A stretch of DNA of 64,000 nucleotides from positions 43,098-107,097 of the forward strand of contig CALRGV010000004.1 in the NCBI GenBank assembly GCA_943358175.1. The letters are read 5' to 3'. Position numbers and translations under genes: made by a program. The notes below the pieces were generated by a model. That model was given only the letters and a program-made list of their open reading frames with translations, did no database searches and was not told the DNA's origin. Numbering within the stretch: position 1 is the stretch's first letter; each line of letters opens with the position of its first letter. Shown one piece after another: positions 7,309 through 38,834 of the stretch. Source of the DNA: Candidatus Peribacteria bacterium. GTDB lineage: Bacteria; Patescibacteriota; Gracilibacteria; UBA1369; LOWO2-01-FULL-3.

Positions 7309-8592
7309 ATGGGGCTTGATAGAGCCACCTGTTTCGAGAGATACTTAAGAGAGTTAGTGGCTAAAAATAATCTTATGGAGACACTAGAACAGACATTACA
7401 GGTAAATGAATTTGCGCGTAAATGTAGACACTTAAAGAACTTCTCCAGAGGAGGTCTGGTAAGAATGAATATTGGTTATTTGTTTTCCAGTGCTTGGAAT
7501 TCAACCAAGAGGCTCGTAAACAATCCTCTTTTTGCTGTTGCGGTAAAAACATTTGGAGTGGCAAAAGAGGCGTGCACAAGCGCTTTACCGGCTTCACCAC
7601 AGAGGAGATTATTGGCTCAATCAATTTTTATTGCCGGTACAGCTTTAATTGTTACTTCTCTCAGTTCCGGCGCTACTTTCACACCTGCTGAGATGAGTTA
7701 TTCCAGCGATTATCTTTCCGCTTACACTTTGCCGGGTGATGTATTGGTTAGTGACGACTCAGGTTACCTTGTAAAGGTGAATCCACCTACCGATGAATCA
7801 AACAGAATTGGCTTAACCGATTATGCCGTACACACGGTTCAGGGTGGAGAAACGATGTCGGCTATCGCGAAAAAATATAGTGTGAAGGTGGAAACAGTAA
7901 TGTGGGAAAACAATATAGTTAATTCAAACACTTTGAGGACCGGCCAAAAACTTCTGATACCACCTGTTGATGGAGTGAGCTATAAAGTGGCCAATGGTGA
8001 AAATATTGAAAAAATTGCAAAAAAATATAGCATTTCAGCAGATTCAATCATCGCGCAGAATGGATTAGATAAAAATTTAGTATACAAGGGACAGGAGTTG
8101 TTCTTGCCTGGTGCTAAGCCTATTCAGACTCCAAACCTGGTAATCGGGCGTAATCCTGTGGCTAGCAGGAGTTACAGAAGTACTGTCAGCGCCACTTCTT
8201 CCACAGCTACTCCGGATATTGGTAAGATGTTTATTTTCCCTACTCTTGGTTCTACCACTCAAGGATTCCGTTCCGGACATTACGCTTTGGATATCGGTAA
8301 TCGTGCGATGCCTCCTATTTGGGCTGCTTCGGGTGGTACAGTGGTTAAGGCTTCCTCAGGCACTTGGGGTGGTGGCTACGGTACTCACGTGATTGTTGAC
8401 CATGGAAACGGCGTGAAGTCTCTTTATGCACATATGGATTCCCTGAATGTCTCTGAAGGTCAGTGGATAAACCAGGGTGACGTAATCGGCGTGATGGGTA
8501 ACACAGGGCGTGTATACGGTGCTACTGGTATCCATTTGCACTGGGAAGTTATCGTCAACGGCGTGAAAGTAAATCCGAATAATTACTTCTAG
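7309..8592 (+). CDS. LysM-domain M23 family metallopeptidase
   Basis: Two LysM motifs (VQGGETMSAIAKKYSV; VANGENIEKIAKKYSI) and M23 motif HYALDIGNRAMPPIWAASGG...VIVDHGNGVKSLYAHM. An internal ATG at 7465 is a plausible alternative start. Confidence 0.92.
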   Translation: MGLDRATCFERYLRELVAKNNLMETLEQTLQVNEFARKCRHLKNFSRGGLVRMNIGYLFSSAWNSTKRLVNNPLFAVAVKTFGVAKEACTSALPASPQRRLLAQSIFIAGTALIVTSLSSGATFTPAEMSYSSDYLSAYTLPGDVLVSDDSGYLVKVNPPTDESNRIGLTDYAVHTVQGGETMSAIAKKYSVKVETVMWENNIVNSNTLRTGQKLLIPPVDGVSYKVANGENIEKIAKKYSISADSIIAQNGLDKNLVYKGQELFLPGAKPIQTPNLVIGRNPVASRSYRSTVSATSSTATPDIGKMFIFPTLGSTTQGFRSGHYALDIGNRAMPPIWAASGGTVVKASSGTWGGGYGTHVIVDHGNGVKSLYAHMDSLNVSEGQWINQGDVIGVMGNTGRVYGATGIHLHWEVIVNGVKVNPNNYF

Positions 8593-8736
8593 AGTGATTA
8601 ATTAAGCTCGTCTACTTCGTTGCCGGTAAACTCCGGTCGAAGTTTTACCGACGCCTCGTAGCTGGCATAAATGTGACACTCTACATTTATACTATCTACT
8701 TTGTTGACAATCTTGCCGAGCTCACTTAATCACTCT
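8591..8736. repeat. Composite stem-loop element 1 (20 nt terminal inverted repeats, internal hairpins)
   Basis: AGAGTGATTAATTAAGCTCG (8591-8610) versus CGAGCTCACTTAATCACTCT (8717-8736), 18/20 complementary; core shared with 49612..49735. Confidence 0.75.
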
Positions 8737-8788
8737 ACTGCAAAGGTATACGCATGGAGTCCGGATTTGTAACAAGAAAATTTTGATC

Positions 8789-9061
8789 ATGAAATCTCTT
8801 AAATATATAGCATCTTGCATCTGGCATTTACCGCGACGTGTAGCGGTTTTTTTTGTGACGGTATATCAGAAAACTTTGTCACCGGACCATGGCTGGCTGA
8901 AAAAGTTTTACCCATATGGATACTGTAAATTCACTCCTTCCTGTTCGGAATATGCGAAGTTGAGTATTAAAAAGTATGGGGTGCTGCGGGGTGGCCTGAA
9001 GTCCGTGTGGCGAATCTGCAGGTGCAATCCATGGAGTAATGGTGGCGAGGACGGGGTGTGA
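8789..9061 (+). CDS. yidD: Membrane protein insertion efficiency factor YidD
   Basis: YQKTLSPDHG...CKFTPSCSEYAKLSIKKYGVLRGGLKSVWRICRCNPWSNGGEDGV. Confidence 0.95.
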   Translation: MKSLKYIASCIWHLPRRVAVFFVTVYQKTLSPDHGWLKKFYPYGYCKFTPSCSEYAKLSIKKYGVLRGGLKSVWRICRCNPWSNGGEDGV

Positions 9062-9196
9062 TTGCCAATCGCTTGCGTCGTCACTCGAGGGCAGGCACGC
9101 TCTAGCGCCTAACCGGTACTTTCCTAGTAAATTCTTGGCTCAATCAAGCCGTAATCCCTCACCACGAACCACCGCGTGCGCGATCTCACGCCGCCA

Positions 9197-10381
9197 TCAC
9201 GCCCTCACCCACCGCTTTTTCACCTCATGACATCTCACATCCACCGCGTGCGCGATCTCATGATGCTCCTTGCAAAGTGGCGCTAGATAGTGCGGATCGT
9301 GGCTTCCGGACAGTGCAAATCTTTGCGTATGATGAATAGTCTCCGCCAGCTTTTGGCAATTTTTTATCGAACATTTCGTCCCGTGTTCGTCGTGAAGAAT
9401 TTTTTTCACGGCGACGGGAATGTGAGGTCGTGGCTGCACCACCACACCGCCCTTCAATTCTCCTTTCGGCGAACTTTTCAAAATCTCCTCCTCGATTTGC
9501 GCTTTCTTCTGTGCCTTTTCCTCTTCCTTTTGCAAAACTTTTTCCGCGATTTTTTCTTTCCTTTGCGCAATTTCTTCCTCACGCTTCTTCAGAAATTCCA
9601 GCAGAATTTGATTGAGATCGAGGCCTTTTTGTTGAAGCTCCAGAAGTTTTTTGTGAACTTCGGGGGAAAGATTTACCGCCTGACTCATCCACCCATTCCA
9701 CACAACCTTGTTTTTTTCGTCACTTGACGCAGCGGAAATAGATTGTGCAGACTTGTGCGCGCGCACAAATTTAGCGCCATTTTCTGGCTCAAGTAAGCCG
9801 TTTGAGTTTTTACCGCGCAGCCCGGAAAGGTCGCCAAAATTGCCAAATAAATCAGCGCTCGCACCCCCGACAATTCCACCACAATTTTCCCTCGCCCACT
9901 TTTCATCCCTCACCAAAGTTTCCACCGCGCCCTTCGACAAAATTTGCACCTGTTCCGCCAAAAATTCCTGATTTTCTGGATTAGCAATCGCCGCGACTCT
10001 CGCCAACTTATTCACACTCACTTCCCCATTCACCAAAAGAGTTTGCAACGCCGGCACATTCTCAAATCTTTTTTCCAAATTCAACACCAATCTCACCTGT
10101 TCTTCGCTCAACCCAGCCAATTTTTTTGCAAAAACAAAAACCGAATCAAAGCCTTTTTTCTCATACAATTTTCGCTTAAAAACCTCCGGCAAAAGTCCAG
10201 TAAATTTTCGTCGCCACTCGAGCGCACGCGCGCCGTATGTTCTACAAAGTTGATAGAGATTTTCATCGCTGAGGGATTGCGGATTGGAGGATGAATTTTG
10301 GCAAAGATTGAAATTTGGATTGTGATTGGAAACTGAATTAACAGACTGATTTTGATCACCATTCACTTGCGGATTATTCAT
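9197..10381 (-). CDS. HNH endonuclease domain protein
   Basis: C-terminal CSIKNCQKLAETIHHTQRFALSGSHDPHYLAPLCKEHHEIAHAVD HNH fold; long Glu/Lys coiled coil before it. Confidence 0.85.
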   Translation of the reverse strand: MNNPQVNGDQNQSVNSVSNHNPNFNLCQNSSSNPQSLSDENLYQLCRTYGARALEWRRKFTGLLPEVFKRKLYEKKGFDSVFVFAKKLAGLSEEQVRLVLNLEKRFENVPALQTLLVNGEVSVNKLARVAAIANPENQEFLAEQVQILSKGAVETLVRDEKWARENCGGIVGGASADLFGNFGDLSGLRGKNSNGLLEPENGAKFVRAHKSAQSISAASSDEKNKVVWNGWMSQAVNLSPEVHKKLLELQQKGLDLNQILLEFLKKREEEIAQRKEKIAEKVLQKEEEKAQKKAQIEEEILKSSPKGELKGGVVVQPRPHIPVAVKKILHDEHGTKCSIKNCQKLAETIHHTQRFALSGSHDPHYLAPLCKEHHEIAHAVDVRCHEVKKRWVRA

Positions 10382-10413
10382 ATTTTAAAGTTTAAATTGT
10401 ATGCTTTGATTGT

Positions 10414-10433
10414 AGGTGAGCATGCACTCACCT
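10414..10433. promoter_or_regulatory. Palindromic LexA-type operator upstream of the HNH gene
   Basis: AGGTGAGCATGCACTCACCT; same 7+7 flanks as the lexA upstream operator at 35937-35954. Confidence 0.7.
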
Positions 10434-10788
10434 TCAAGGCTGAATTCTCTTTTCTACTAGCCAAAAGATCAGAAATGACTCGAAGTGAAACTCGTGTTTA
10501 CCTCTATTTTAAGCCGTAATTGCAACATTGCCACAATCGTGAAATTTTATAAGATAACCCACAGCCAACAATTTAAAGTTCCGGGTAGGCGCTAGGGTGT
10601 GCCCGGGGAAGGTCGCCCAAAGCACCATGGTCAATTCATCCGCCGCGCTATTGACATTTCCTTTGATATAATTAGAATTCACAAGGGCCGGCCGAGAAGG
10701 AAGCACGTGCTGTAAAGCGCAAAGTGGTGCGGAAATCGACGAATATGGCCGCAGCAGAGCAAGATTCAATCTATTAATCCAATTCACT

Positions 10789-12300
10789 ATGCCGATTCAA
10801 CGCGCTTTGATCAGTGTGTCTGACAAAACCGGAATAGTTGATTTCGCGAAAAAGCTGGCCGAAAAAAACATCGAAATCCTCTCTACCGGTGGTACCGCCA
10901 AAGCGCTCAAAGACGCCGGTATAAAAGTCACCGACGTGTCTGAATACACAGGATTCCCCGAGATGATGGATGGCAGAGTGAAAACTTTGCATCCGAAAAT
11001 TCACGGAGGGATTTTGGCTATTCGGGATAACCCAGAACATAGAAAACAGGCGGAAGATGCCGGAATAAAGATGATTGATCTGGTTGTGATTAATTTTTAT
11101 CCTTTTTTGGAAAAACCGGGAATTGAGAATATAGATATAGGCGGGCCGAGTATGGTGAGAAGTGCGGCGAAAAACTTCGAACACGTAACGATAGTCACTA
11201 GTCCGGCCGATTATGATGAAGTGATGAACGAAATTGAGCAGAATGGAGAGAGTAGTTTGGAGACACGAAAAAAATTGGCGAGAAAAGCTTTTACGGCGAC
11301 CAGTCATTATGACTCGGCAATTGAACAATACTTTAGAGAACTTTTGGATGAACCGGAACTTTTGGAATTACATTACGAAAAAGTTTCCAGCTTGAGATAT
11401 GGTGAAAATCCGCATCAGAAAGCCGCTTTTTTCCGCAATCCGGAGAATACTGACGCCAATATTACCAATTCGAGGGTTCTCCATGGCAAGCAGCTGTCTT
11501 TCAATAATCTGGTGGATGGTGATAGCGCGCTGGAGCTTGTGAAGGAATTCAAAGAGCCTACGGCGGTTTTTGTGAAACATAATAATCCGTGTGGTGTGGC
11601 AAGTGCCGCGACAATAGAGGAGGCCTTCAAAAAGGCCTACGACGTCGATCCCCTTTCAGCTTTTGGTTGTGTGATTGCCCTGAATTGCGAGGTGAATGAT
11701 GCGGTGGTGGATTACATGAAGGAAAAAAAGATGTTTGTGGAAATGATTATCGCGCCGAGTTATGAAGAAAATGCTTTGAAGCGCCTGATGACGAGAGAAA
11801 ATTTGCGTATTTTGGAAACGGGACCGCTGAAATTGGATTTACTTAAAACCGATATCAAAAAAGTGGCCGGAGGTTTGTTGATTCAGACCAAAGATGCTTA
11901 TGAATTAACGCGCGCGGATCTACAGGTGGTAAGCAAGAAACAGCCTACGGAAGAGGAAATCGACTCTATGCTCTTTGCCACGAAAGTCGTGAAGCATGTG
12001 ATGTCGAACGCGATCGTGATGGCAAAAGGGACGATGGTGACAGGCGTTGGCGCAGGCCAGATGTCGCGTGTGGATAGCGTGTTCATTGCCGGACATAAAG
12101 GTGGTGAGAACGTCCGCGGTTCGATGATGTCATCGGATGCTTTCTTTCCTTTTCCGGACGCGGTGGAATTGGCTCACAAGTTTGGCGTGACAGGGGTGAT
12201 TCATCCCGGTGGCTCAATAAATGACGCACAAGTCATAGAGGCGGCCGACAAGCTCGGCATGGTCATGGTGGTGACCGGTAGGAGGTATTTTAGGCATTGA
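10789..12300 (+). CDS. purH: Bifunctional AICAR transformylase / IMP cyclohydrolase
   Basis: ALISVSDKTGIVDFAKKL...STGGTAKALKDAG...GMVMVVTGRRYFRH C-terminus. Confidence 0.96.
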   Translation: MPIQRALISVSDKTGIVDFAKKLAEKNIEILSTGGTAKALKDAGIKVTDVSEYTGFPEMMDGRVKTLHPKIHGGILAIRDNPEHRKQAEDAGIKMIDLVVINFYPFLEKPGIENIDIGGPSMVRSAAKNFEHVTIVTSPADYDEVMNEIEQNGESSLETRKKLARKAFTATSHYDSAIEQYFRELLDEPELLELHYEKVSSLRYGENPHQKAAFFRNPENTDANITNSRVLHGKQLSFNNLVDGDSALELVKEFKEPTAVFVKHNNPCGVASAATIEEAFKKAYDVDPLSAFGCVIALNCEVNDAVVDYMKEKKMFVEMIIAPSYEENALKRLMTRENLRILETGPLKLDLLKTDIKKVAGGLLIQTKDAYELTRADLQVVSKKQPTEEEIDSMLFATKVVKHVMSNAIVMAKGTMVTGVGAGQMSRVDSVFIAGHKGGENVRGSMMSSDAFFPFPDAVELAHKFGVTGVIHPGGSINDAQVIEAADKLGMVMVVTGRRYFRH

Positions 12301-35931: not shown

Positions 35932-35978
35932 TTGACGGTGAGCGCGTACTCACCTACTATAGTGAGCGTACGCTTACC
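35932..35978 (+). promoter_or_regulatory. lexA promoter with two LexA-type operators
   Basis: TTGACG (35932-35937)-N17-TACTAT (35955-35960); GGTGAGCGCGTACTCACC 35937-35954 fills the spacer; AGTGAGCGTACGCTTACC 35961-35978 lies just downstream. Confidence 0.75.
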
Positions 35979-35994
35979 TATTAAAAATAATTCT

Positions 35995-36609
35995 ATGTCT
36001 GACGCCTTAACAGAAAAACAAGAAGCCGTGCTGAAATTCATTGGTGAATATCAAATGGCTTATGGTAAATCTCCTACTTTACGTGAAATGCGTGAGCACT
36101 TTGGAGTGAGCTCCGACAATAGTATTTTGAAGCATTTGAAGGCTTTGCAGGAAAAAGGAGTGATAAGCAAAGATGATACACCTAGAGGGATTGCTTTACT
36201 AAATAGTGTGAAAGAAAAACTGGAGAGTACTGGTGTGAAGCTGCCGGTTTTGGGATTTATTCCTGCCGGTGGGCCTGTTTTGACTGACGAATATGTTGAA
36301 AGCTGGATGGGTGTGGGTGAAGAGTTGGCTAAAAATGCAAATGACTATTTTATCCTTAGAGTTACCGGTAACAGTATGATTGATGCTGGAATTTTCGAAG
36401 GAGACCTTGTTGTGATTAACGCTAAAAAGGAGCCTCGTCATGAGGACATCGTCGTGGCGTTGGTCGACAATCACAACACTTTGAAGCGATTCATAAAAAA
36501 AGATGGTAAGGTCTACTTGAAGGCTGAAAATAAAGCCTACAAGGATATCTATCCTGAAAATGAATTACAGACTCAAGGCGTGGTCACGGCGTTGATCAGG
36601 CAATATTAA
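35995..36609 (+). CDS. lexA: LexA repressor
   Basis: LTEKQEAVLKFIGEYQMAYGKSPTLREMREHFGVSSDNSILKHLKALQEKGVI...VTGNSMIDAGIFEGDLVVINAKKEPRHEDIVVALVDNHNTLKRFIKKDGKVYLKAEN; ATG at 35995 chosen because the ORF-track start (TTG, 35932) lies in the promoter. Confidence 0.95.
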   Translation: MSDALTEKQEAVLKFIGEYQMAYGKSPTLREMREHFGVSSDNSILKHLKALQEKGVISKDDTPRGIALLNSVKEKLESTGVKLPVLGFIPAGGPVLTDEYVESWMGVGEELAKNANDYFILRVTGNSMIDAGIFEGDLVVINAKKEPRHEDIVVALVDNHNTLKRFIKKDGKVYLKAENKAYKDIYPENELQTQGVVTALIRQY

Positions 36610-37010: not shown

Positions 37011-37301
37011 ATGTTTCATATTAATGACAAAATAACTTTAATTAGCATGGCGGAATTGCGAAAAGAAGCTCCCGAGATAGCAAAGGATCTTAAATATAGA
37101 ACTGTAATTGTAACTAAAAGAGGTAAGCCTGTTGCCGTACTTGAGGATTATCAAACTTATCAGGAAAAAGAAAAATTGGTGGAAGAATTTGAGGATATTA
37201 TTCTTGGCAATATTGCTAAGGAAAGGGCAAAAAATAGTAAGCCTGAGGATTTTATTCCGATGGAGGTTGTGGCTAAAAAACTGGGTATTAAATTAGAATA
37301 A
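37011..37301 (+). CDS. Phd/YefM-type antitoxin
   Basis: LISMAELRKEAPEIAKDLKYRTVIVTKRGKPVAVLEDYQTYQEKEKL. Confidence 0.85.
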   Translation: MFHINDKITLISMAELRKEAPEIAKDLKYRTVIVTKRGKPVAVLEDYQTYQEKEKLVEEFEDIILGNIAKERAKNSKPEDFIPMEVVAKKLGIKLE

Positions 37302-37311
37302 ACATTTCATT

Positions 37312-37611
37312 ATGTATAAGATTGTTTTGCATAAAATTGTTGTTGAAAACGACTTGCCTAACATGAATAAGACGGATCAGGACAAGGTTTTCAATGCAAT
37401 GTATAAAAAATTAACAGTAGCTCCTGAGAAGTTAGGAAAGCCTTTACACGGTAAACTGAAGGGCTACTTTAAACTTAGGGTTGATGAATACAGAGTAGTG
37501 TATCAAATAAAAAAAGATGAAGTAGTGATTTTTGTTTTCAAAATAGGTCAGAGGAAGGATTCTATTGTTTACGAAGAAGCAATTAAGAGGCTTGGACGAA
37601 TTGATTTCTAA
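37312..37611 (+). CDS. RelE/ParE-type toxin
   Basis: KPLHGKLKGYFKLRVDEYRVVYQIKKDEVVIFVFKIGQRKDSIVYEEA. Confidence 0.87.
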   Translation: MYKIVLHKIVVENDLPNMNKTDQDKVFNAMYKKLTVAPEKLGKPLHGKLKGYFKLRVDEYRVVYQIKKDEVVIFVFKIGQRKDSIVYEEAIKRLGRIDF

Positions 37612-37613
37612 CC

Positions 37614-38834
37614 ATGTTTAACTTACCACTCAATCAGAAAAGGCGTCACATATTACACATAGACGCAGATGCTTTTTTCGCCTCGGTGGAGCAGATTTTG
37701 AATCCGAAATTGAAAGGTAAAGCGGTTTTAGTGGGTGGTCCGAGTGGGACCAGAGGGATAGTTTCGGCGGCGAGTTATGAGGCTAGAAAGTTTGGGGTAC
37801 ATGCCGGGATGGCGATGTATATGGCTAGGAGAAAATGTCCGCATGGCATTGTGGTGGCGGGGAATTTCGAGGAATATAGAAAATTCTCCAATGGAATGTA
37901 CTCAGTTTTTACCAAGTATACACCGGACGTGGAGATGGCCTCGATTGATGAGGCTTATCTGGATATCACCGGTTGTACGAGCCTGCATAAATTGGATTAT
38001 CCTGAAATTGCCAGAAATATTTTAATGGAAGTTTATAAAAAACTTGGTTTATCGGTTTCGTGTGGCATGGCCAGTAGCAAGGTGGTTTCAAAAGTGGCCT
38101 CAAGCCAGAATAAACCGCATAAACTAACCATTGTTCCCTATGGGAGTGAAGCTAGATTTTTGGCACCTTTACCTCTAAGAGCTATGCCGGGGATTGGTCC
38201 AAAAACTTTTGAGGTTTTAGAAAGATGTGGATTACAGACTTTGGGAGAATTGGCGGCTTTGAGTCTGAATGAAGTGATGGAAAAATTTGGTGTCCATGGC
38301 ATTCCACTCTGGAAACGTGCACAAGGAATTGATGATAGTGAAGTAGTAGCGGCGCATGCGTTGCCGAAATCAATTTCCAAGGAAAATACCTTTTATGAAA
38401 ATGCCGTGGGCAAAGATGTTGCTTTAAAAGAGCTGCAAGGATTGGCTGGAACGGTTTTTGAAAAACTGAGGGCATCCGGACTAAGGGCGCGTACAATTTG
38501 CATTAAAATAAGATATAAAAATAATGATCCAGTGAATGATGGCATGTCGGCTGGTGATCGCCATCGAGCCATTTTCAAGGACTTTGCTTTTCAACAAAAT
38601 TTGGACTTCCCTACTTCGTTAGACACAAAACTTTGGCTACCGATAAAAAAGCTTTTCCTTAAAAATCTGGATAGAAATGAGCAACTAAGATTGATCGGCG
38701 TTGGCGTGACGAATTTGATTCAAAATTACAATCTAAATCTTTTTGATAATGACGAGGGGCAGGAAAAATTGTTCACACAGATAGATGCGATGAAGAAAAT
38801 GTATGGCGAGGATAGTGTGAGACATGGAATTTAG
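37614..38834 (+). CDS. dinB: DNA polymerase IV
   Basis: ILHIDADAFFASVEQILNPKLKGKAVLVGG...ASIDEAYLDITG...SCGMASSKVVSKVASSQNKP; starts 2 nt after the toxin stop. Confidence 0.95.
   Translation: MFNLPLNQKRRHILHIDADAFFASVEQILNPKLKGKAVLVGGPSGTRGIVSAASYEARKFGVHAGMAMYMARRKCPHGIVVAGNFEEYRKFSNGMYSVFTKYTPDVEMASIDEAYLDITGCTSLHKLDYPEIARNILMEVYKKLGLSVSCGMASSKVVSKVASSQNKPHKLTIVPYGSEARFLAPLPLRAMPGIGPKTFEVLERCGLQTLGELAALSLNEVMEKFGVHGIPLWKRAQGIDDSEVVAAHALPKSISKENTFYENAVGKDVALKELQGLAGTVFEKLRASGLRARTICIKIRYKNNDPVNDGMSAGDRHRAIFKDFAFQQNLDFPTSLDTKLWLPIKKLFLKNLDRNEQLRLIGVGVTNLIQNYNLNLFDNDEGQEKLFTQIDAMKKMYGEDSVRHGI

Follow-up and report, generated by a model that had tools for sequence, protein, structure and literature searches.

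Predicted LexA control of an HNH nuclease gene, and signs of mobility in its family, in a Candidatus Peribacteria genome

A gene for an HNH nuclease lies under the same kind of palindrome as lexA in the window analysed here (a stretch of 64,000 nucleotides from a Candidatus Peribacteria contig). This raises two questions: whether the gene belongs to the SOS regulon, and what a nuclease induced by DNA damage would do in a genome that carries 14 paralogs of it. Our best reading is that the family consists of SOS-induced, single-gene, mobile (homing-like) nucleases resembling the 13E12 genes of mycobacteria. Below we treat the operator, the protein and its relatives, the insertion sites, and finally the explanations that compete for the role of the family.

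The LexA box and the predicted SOS regulon

The HNH gene (9197..10381, minus strand) was recognised by its open reading frame, PHROG matches and an AlphaFold model, and encodes 394 aa from an ATG start. The palindrome AGGTGAGCATGCACTCACCT occupies 10414-10433, which places it 33-52 nt 5' of the start codon, in agreement with an earlier note on this DNA. Its core, GGTGAGCATGCACTCACC (10415..10432), is the predicted LexA box. All 14 outer bases (GGTGAGC....ACTCACC) are shared with the first lexA operator, GGTGAGCGCGTACTCACC (35937..35954, recognised by box match and promoter geometry), 25.5 kb away; the earlier note had correctly reported this 7+7 identity and the distance of 25 kb. A second, weaker lexA operator, AGTGAGCGTACGCTTACC, matches the box at 35961..35978. 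The lexA gene itself (35995..36609, plus strand), the presumed regulator of the HNH gene, was identified through TIGR00498 (E 1.2e-49) and the Pfam families Peptidase_S24 and LexA_DNA_bind. Between lexA and a dinB-type polymerase gene (37614-38834) the window also holds a Phd/YefM-like and ParE-like toxin-antitoxin pair (37011-37611).

The box of the HNH gene makes up the 17-bp spacer of a predicted sigma-70 promoter on the minus strand, TTGAAG-box-TACAAT, with the predicted -35 element at 10432..10437 and the predicted -10 element downstream of the box at 10409..10414. The same geometry is seen at lexA, recA, radA and the Bro-N genes: 10 of the 15 genome boxes, including that of the HNH gene, fill a promoter spacer, with the consensus TTGACG-GTGAGYRYRYRCTCACC-TATAAT. 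Given this position, bound LexA would block RNA polymerase at the promoter. Five boxed HNH genes have a different leader, in which the box precedes the ATG by 83-110 nt and is free of a flanking sigma-70 promoter; further downstream, ~45-70 bp from the box, many such leaders have a candidate -10-like stretch. The leaders that we label type A (window 10450-10530, L050 and L060) have an additional conserved CGAGTTTNACTTCGAG-like stretch, which might be a second binding site, at a distance of 35-100 bp on the upstream side of the box.

Boxes are far more frequent than chance would allow. A scan of the window with at most 3 mismatches gave 10 matches, a count that all of 100 shuffles (mean 1.69) fell short of. 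Across the genome (1.376 Mb, 45 contigs) the pattern GGTGAGN6CTCACC with at most 1 mismatch occurs at 16 sites (against 1 for a reversed control pattern), 15 of which, of the form GGTGAGYRYRYRCTCACC (again with at most 1 mismatch), head recognisable genes: lexA, recA, radA, 5 Bro-N (DinD-like) genes and 7 HNH paralogs. The central six bases of these 15 real sites alternate between pyrimidine and purine (YRYRYR). Seven of the 14 HNH paralogs thus carry a box, 33-110 bp ahead of their ATG, and the other seven are unboxed. A Poisson estimate predicts only ~0.02 boxes within 150 bp upstream of all 14. The five Bro-N genes (L002, L003, L007, L008 and L013) have perfect predicted LexA boxes in the promoter spacer, and one of them is a decayed fragment.

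In relatives the same box precedes lexA, recA, radA, Bro-N, RhuM, AntA, DUF763 and HNH genes. With an upstream operator of the same type as that of the genome's lexA, and with this conservation and the lexA, recA and radA boxes of relatives behind it, the proposal that the HNH gene belongs to the SOS regulon has been strengthened: judged from sequence, the gene is very probably under LexA control. LexA regulons and the SOS network in Patescibacteria were reportedly the subject of work by Sanchez-Osuna et al. in 2017 (Environ Microbiol 19:3465), and the regulon described here may be partly known already.

The protein and its relatives

In the AlphaFold model of the HNH protein (mean pLDDT 82.6, pTM 0.75) residues 34-166 form a helical domain; a disordered linker follows, then a long helix at 256-303 and, at 323-393, an HNH fold. 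The N-terminal helical domain, encoded at 9884..10282 on the minus strand, has a predicted ParB/Noc-like DNA-binding fold: the top Foldseek matches in the PDB are ParB, Noc and Spo0J, with high probability but E-values of 0.16-0.8, and the TM-score on the Noc domain 6y93 is 0.67. The modelled resemblance to ParB is suggestive, the E-values not being significant; the present protein is devoid of the ParB CTPase domain. The C-terminal domain (9203..9415, minus strand) has EcoKMcrA, IscB and Cas5-HNH as its Foldseek neighbours. Seven residues are invariant in 65 homologs, namely P110, C337, C342, H350, H351, C370 and H373, of which all except P110 are HNH catalytic or zinc residues. The predicted HNH (beta-beta-alpha metal) fold with its conserved His and Cys residues places the protein in the HNH superfamily, and PHROG HNH families match the same C-terminal part (best E 1.4e-4 for the window protein, down to ~5e-6 for relatives).

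Family databases are less informative. Pfam and NCBIfam have no family for the whole protein, and Pfam HNH itself was not reached. Below the Pfam cut-offs, the HNH part shows weak similarity to RecA_dep_nuc and DUF968, that is, to proteins such as the RecA-dependent nuclease Ref of phage P1, from which the present protein differs in its N-terminal part. The 13E12 family of mycobacteria carries Pfam DUF222. Membership in this DUF222-HNH group was considered and rejected: PF02720 has no match in the own genome (a control genome was positive) and none among the Pfam matches of the 65 homologs. Collections of plasmids and phages yielded no homolog of the full-length protein.

The copies are conserved as proteins. 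In 15 copy pairs dN/dS ranges from 0.12 to 0.27 (a sixteenth pair is saturated), with 0.24 for the window gene and its nearest paralog; on these ratios the HNH copies are under purifying selection.

The family occurs in 32 of 41 genomes (the own genome plus 40 relatives) with very uneven numbers of matches, and boxes were found in all. Copy numbers among the relatives run from 0 to dozens, 9 of the 41 genomes being without the family; copies are frequently located at contig ends, and some are truncated or decayed. The HNH loci from genome contigs come nearly all from Candidatus Peregrinibacteria/Peribacteria, together with a few from Gracilibacteria and one Patescibacteria record. Among 191 sampled genomes of the phylum, strong matches were confined to the own order, with 3 weak matches elsewhere. 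By these searches the family appears almost restricted to its own order.

The box accompanies part of this family, and does so by lineage. Using a threshold of at least 11 of 12 bases, an upstream box was called at 30 of 98 HNH genes (3 loci being duplicated between collections) against 13 of 498 control genes, and most of the boxed controls are divergent neighbours of an HNH box. Among 125 sampled HNH homologs 43 are boxed, grouped by clade: on a tree of the 125 N-terminal domains the box state requires 13 changes and is strongly clustered, and group labels change 18 times for boxed and 14 times for unboxed rows (31 and 39 when shuffled). Since this tree is built from few columns and has many open forks, we use the clustering alone and leave the deep order aside. 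The clade of the window gene (with two other own paralogs and one gene each from two congeners) is boxed in 5/5 cases, clade B, which spans many families, in 19/20, and a Peribacteria clade in 8/8.

The earlier note had tied its claim to conservation of the palindrome upstream of HNH orthologs. Checked in this way, the claim was not refuted: such conservation holds within these three clades, but other large clades and 7 of the 14 own paralogs are unboxed. Since the box is missing from half of the own paralogs and from most homologs, SOS control is evidently not required for the family to persist. In the unboxed paralogs L044 (near 2131), L045 and L046 we observed an in-frame, REP-like CCTGCCGGCGGGC palindrome within the coding region.

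Insertion sites and gene neighbourhoods

The HNH gene and its promoter are the sole content of a lineage-specific insertion between yidD and purH (outer limits 9053..10649): the gap between these genes measures tens of bp in the congeners G002 and G003 against ~1.6 kb in the window. A second empty site was found for the HNH copy on contig C23, which G003 lacks; on both flanks the homology picks up again after no more than a few bases. This unit of ~1.13 kb runs from just past the upstream gene's stop codon to ~10 bp beyond that of the HNH gene. At two HNH loci, congeners thus have clean empty sites, a presence/absence pattern of the homing type. For the C1 copy the empty-site comparison gave no match in congeners to the adjoining gene.

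In the more distant G005, which belongs to another genus, an HNH gene is also present between yidD and purH, this time from a different, unboxed clade. As the copies in G000 and G005 are of different clades, the site has apparently been occupied twice, barring gene conversion. Flanking genes differ between most HNH copies. Two HNH loci nonetheless look vertically inherited within the genus, and here the box has been kept while the surrounding DNA diverged. At the orthologous loci L049 and L194 (in G000 and G002) one copy has a type-B leader and the other a promoter-spacer box, as if leader and gene had recombined.

The window unit is bordered by an inverted repeat: its left arm (9094..9122), just inside the insertion, is 86% complementary to the right arm of 29 nt (10575..10603). 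The pair has a local-alignment score of 42, whereas shuffles gave no more than 26, and it is unique in the genome. Terminal inverted repeats as a general feature of the copies were rejected, as relatives have them no more often than controls, with one exception. The repeats that flank copies L044 and L092 are unrelated to those of the window unit, and no recognisable ends common to all HNH copies were found; the shared terminal repeats of a transposon or insertion sequence were thus not recovered. Some ~75 bp of the purH leader (window 10690-10775) are also absent from G002 and G003, and Rfam has no family in 8500-11000.

The earlier note had left the options of effector, repair nuclease, mobile component and defence component side by side. 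The empty sites now favour the mobile component, because they show that the unit is gained or lost between genomes.

What the nuclease might do

We hold with moderate confidence that the gene encodes a LexA-repressed, damage-induced HNH endonuclease with its own ParB/Noc-like recognition domain, and that it belongs to a mobile, single-gene, homing-like family. In such a scheme LexA would sit in the promoter spacer and repress the gene until damage-activated RecA brings about LexA self-cleavage, upon which the nuclease would be produced along with RecA and RadA. The N-terminal domain would then pick sites at which the HNH protein cuts the DNA, and recombinational repair would copy the gene to new or empty sites. 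Taken together, the boxed sister copies and the mobile-like gain and loss suggest that a family of spreading, DNA-cutting enzymes is probably switched on by DNA damage. For the mobile, homing-like role as such we see an about even chance; strict homing predicts recurrent sites, and the mostly different neighbours found here are a point against it, as are the lack of ends shared by all copies or of a defined site motif and the two loci that look vertically inherited. More tentatively, and with somewhat poorer prospects, it might be argued that order-specific, self-spreading HNH nucleases, each encoded by a single gene and targeted by a ParB-like domain, have come to hold a large share of the Peregrinibacteria SOS regulon, such that damage licenses homing with LexA as gatekeeper and RecA and RadA finishing the move.

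Two known systems invite comparison. Phages carry free-standing (intergenic) HNH homing endonucleases, which likewise combine a single nuclease gene and a DNA-binding domain with clean intergenic insertion and presence/absence polymorphism, whereas the present family is chromosomal, under predicted LexA control and found at many unrelated sites per genome. The 13E12 family of mycobacteria consists of LexA-controlled, multi-copy HNH genes (PMC5005354, PMC4181829, PMC8151990): 10 HNH-domain 13E12 genes of Mycobacterium tuberculosis have been discussed as LexA-controlled (PMC4181829), and 5 putative HNH endonucleases are among the RecA-dependent genes that respond to mitomycin C (PMC8151990). The present family is similar in its copy number, HNH domain and predicted LexA boxes (here 14 copies, 7 boxed), but it stems from another phylum, has another LexA motif and forms single-gene units with empty sites. 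In a literature search we found no paper joining Peregrinibacteria with HNH endonucleases.

Two points make this relevant. The genome offers a well-delimited predicted SOS regulon from an uncultured lineage of Patescibacteria, and a single nuclease family accounts for about half of its operators. In addition, many HNH genes under predicted LexA control, the same outcome as in mycobacteria, are reached through a protein family without recognisable DUF222. This apparently convergent recruitment of HNH genes under LexA would open a second, independent system for testing 13E12 function.

One alternative is that the nuclease is a host SOS effector, domesticated to take part in recombination or repair, a role also proposed for 13E12 genes or RecA-dependent nucleases of the phage P1 Ref type. 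The box retained in the vertically inherited copies of the genus, the purifying selection, the box shared with recA and radA (co-regulation) and the weak RecA_dep_nuc and DUF968 matches are all consistent with it, and a repair role has been suggested for the LexA-controlled 13E12 HNH genes (PMC4181829). We nevertheless regard it as unlikely: the swings in copy number among close relatives, the relatives without the family, the clean empty sites and the decayed copies make the family unlike a core repair enzyme.

Defence or altruistic death, to which we attach a similarly low probability, would have damage (for example by phage) induce a DNase that destroys the DNA of the phage or of the cell itself. 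An HNH DNase can indeed trigger programmed death in a mycobacterium (PMC9416677), an SOS-boxed nuclease alone in its unit and a patchy multi-copy distribution (typical for defence genes) would fit, and many regulon partners are of phage type (Bro-N/AntA/RhuM). Against this, PADLOC gave no meaningful match for the HNH protein, the unit has no immunity or sensor partner, and in the neighbourhoods examined the copies are scattered rather than clustered.

That the LexA site is genuine and the gene an inert passenger, left by a prophage or older element with a LexA-controlled promoter, might be suggested by the truncated or decayed copies and the phage-type Bro-N genes. It is highly improbable in view of dN/dS values far under 1, catalytic residues that are invariant in 65 homologs and a box kept across many families. 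Least credible of all is that the palindrome is unrelated to LexA and serves the HNH protein itself, for autoregulation or as its target: a predicted DNA-binding domain would suit this, but the box stands ahead of lexA, recA, radA and Bro-N in many genomes, some of them with few or no HNH copies.
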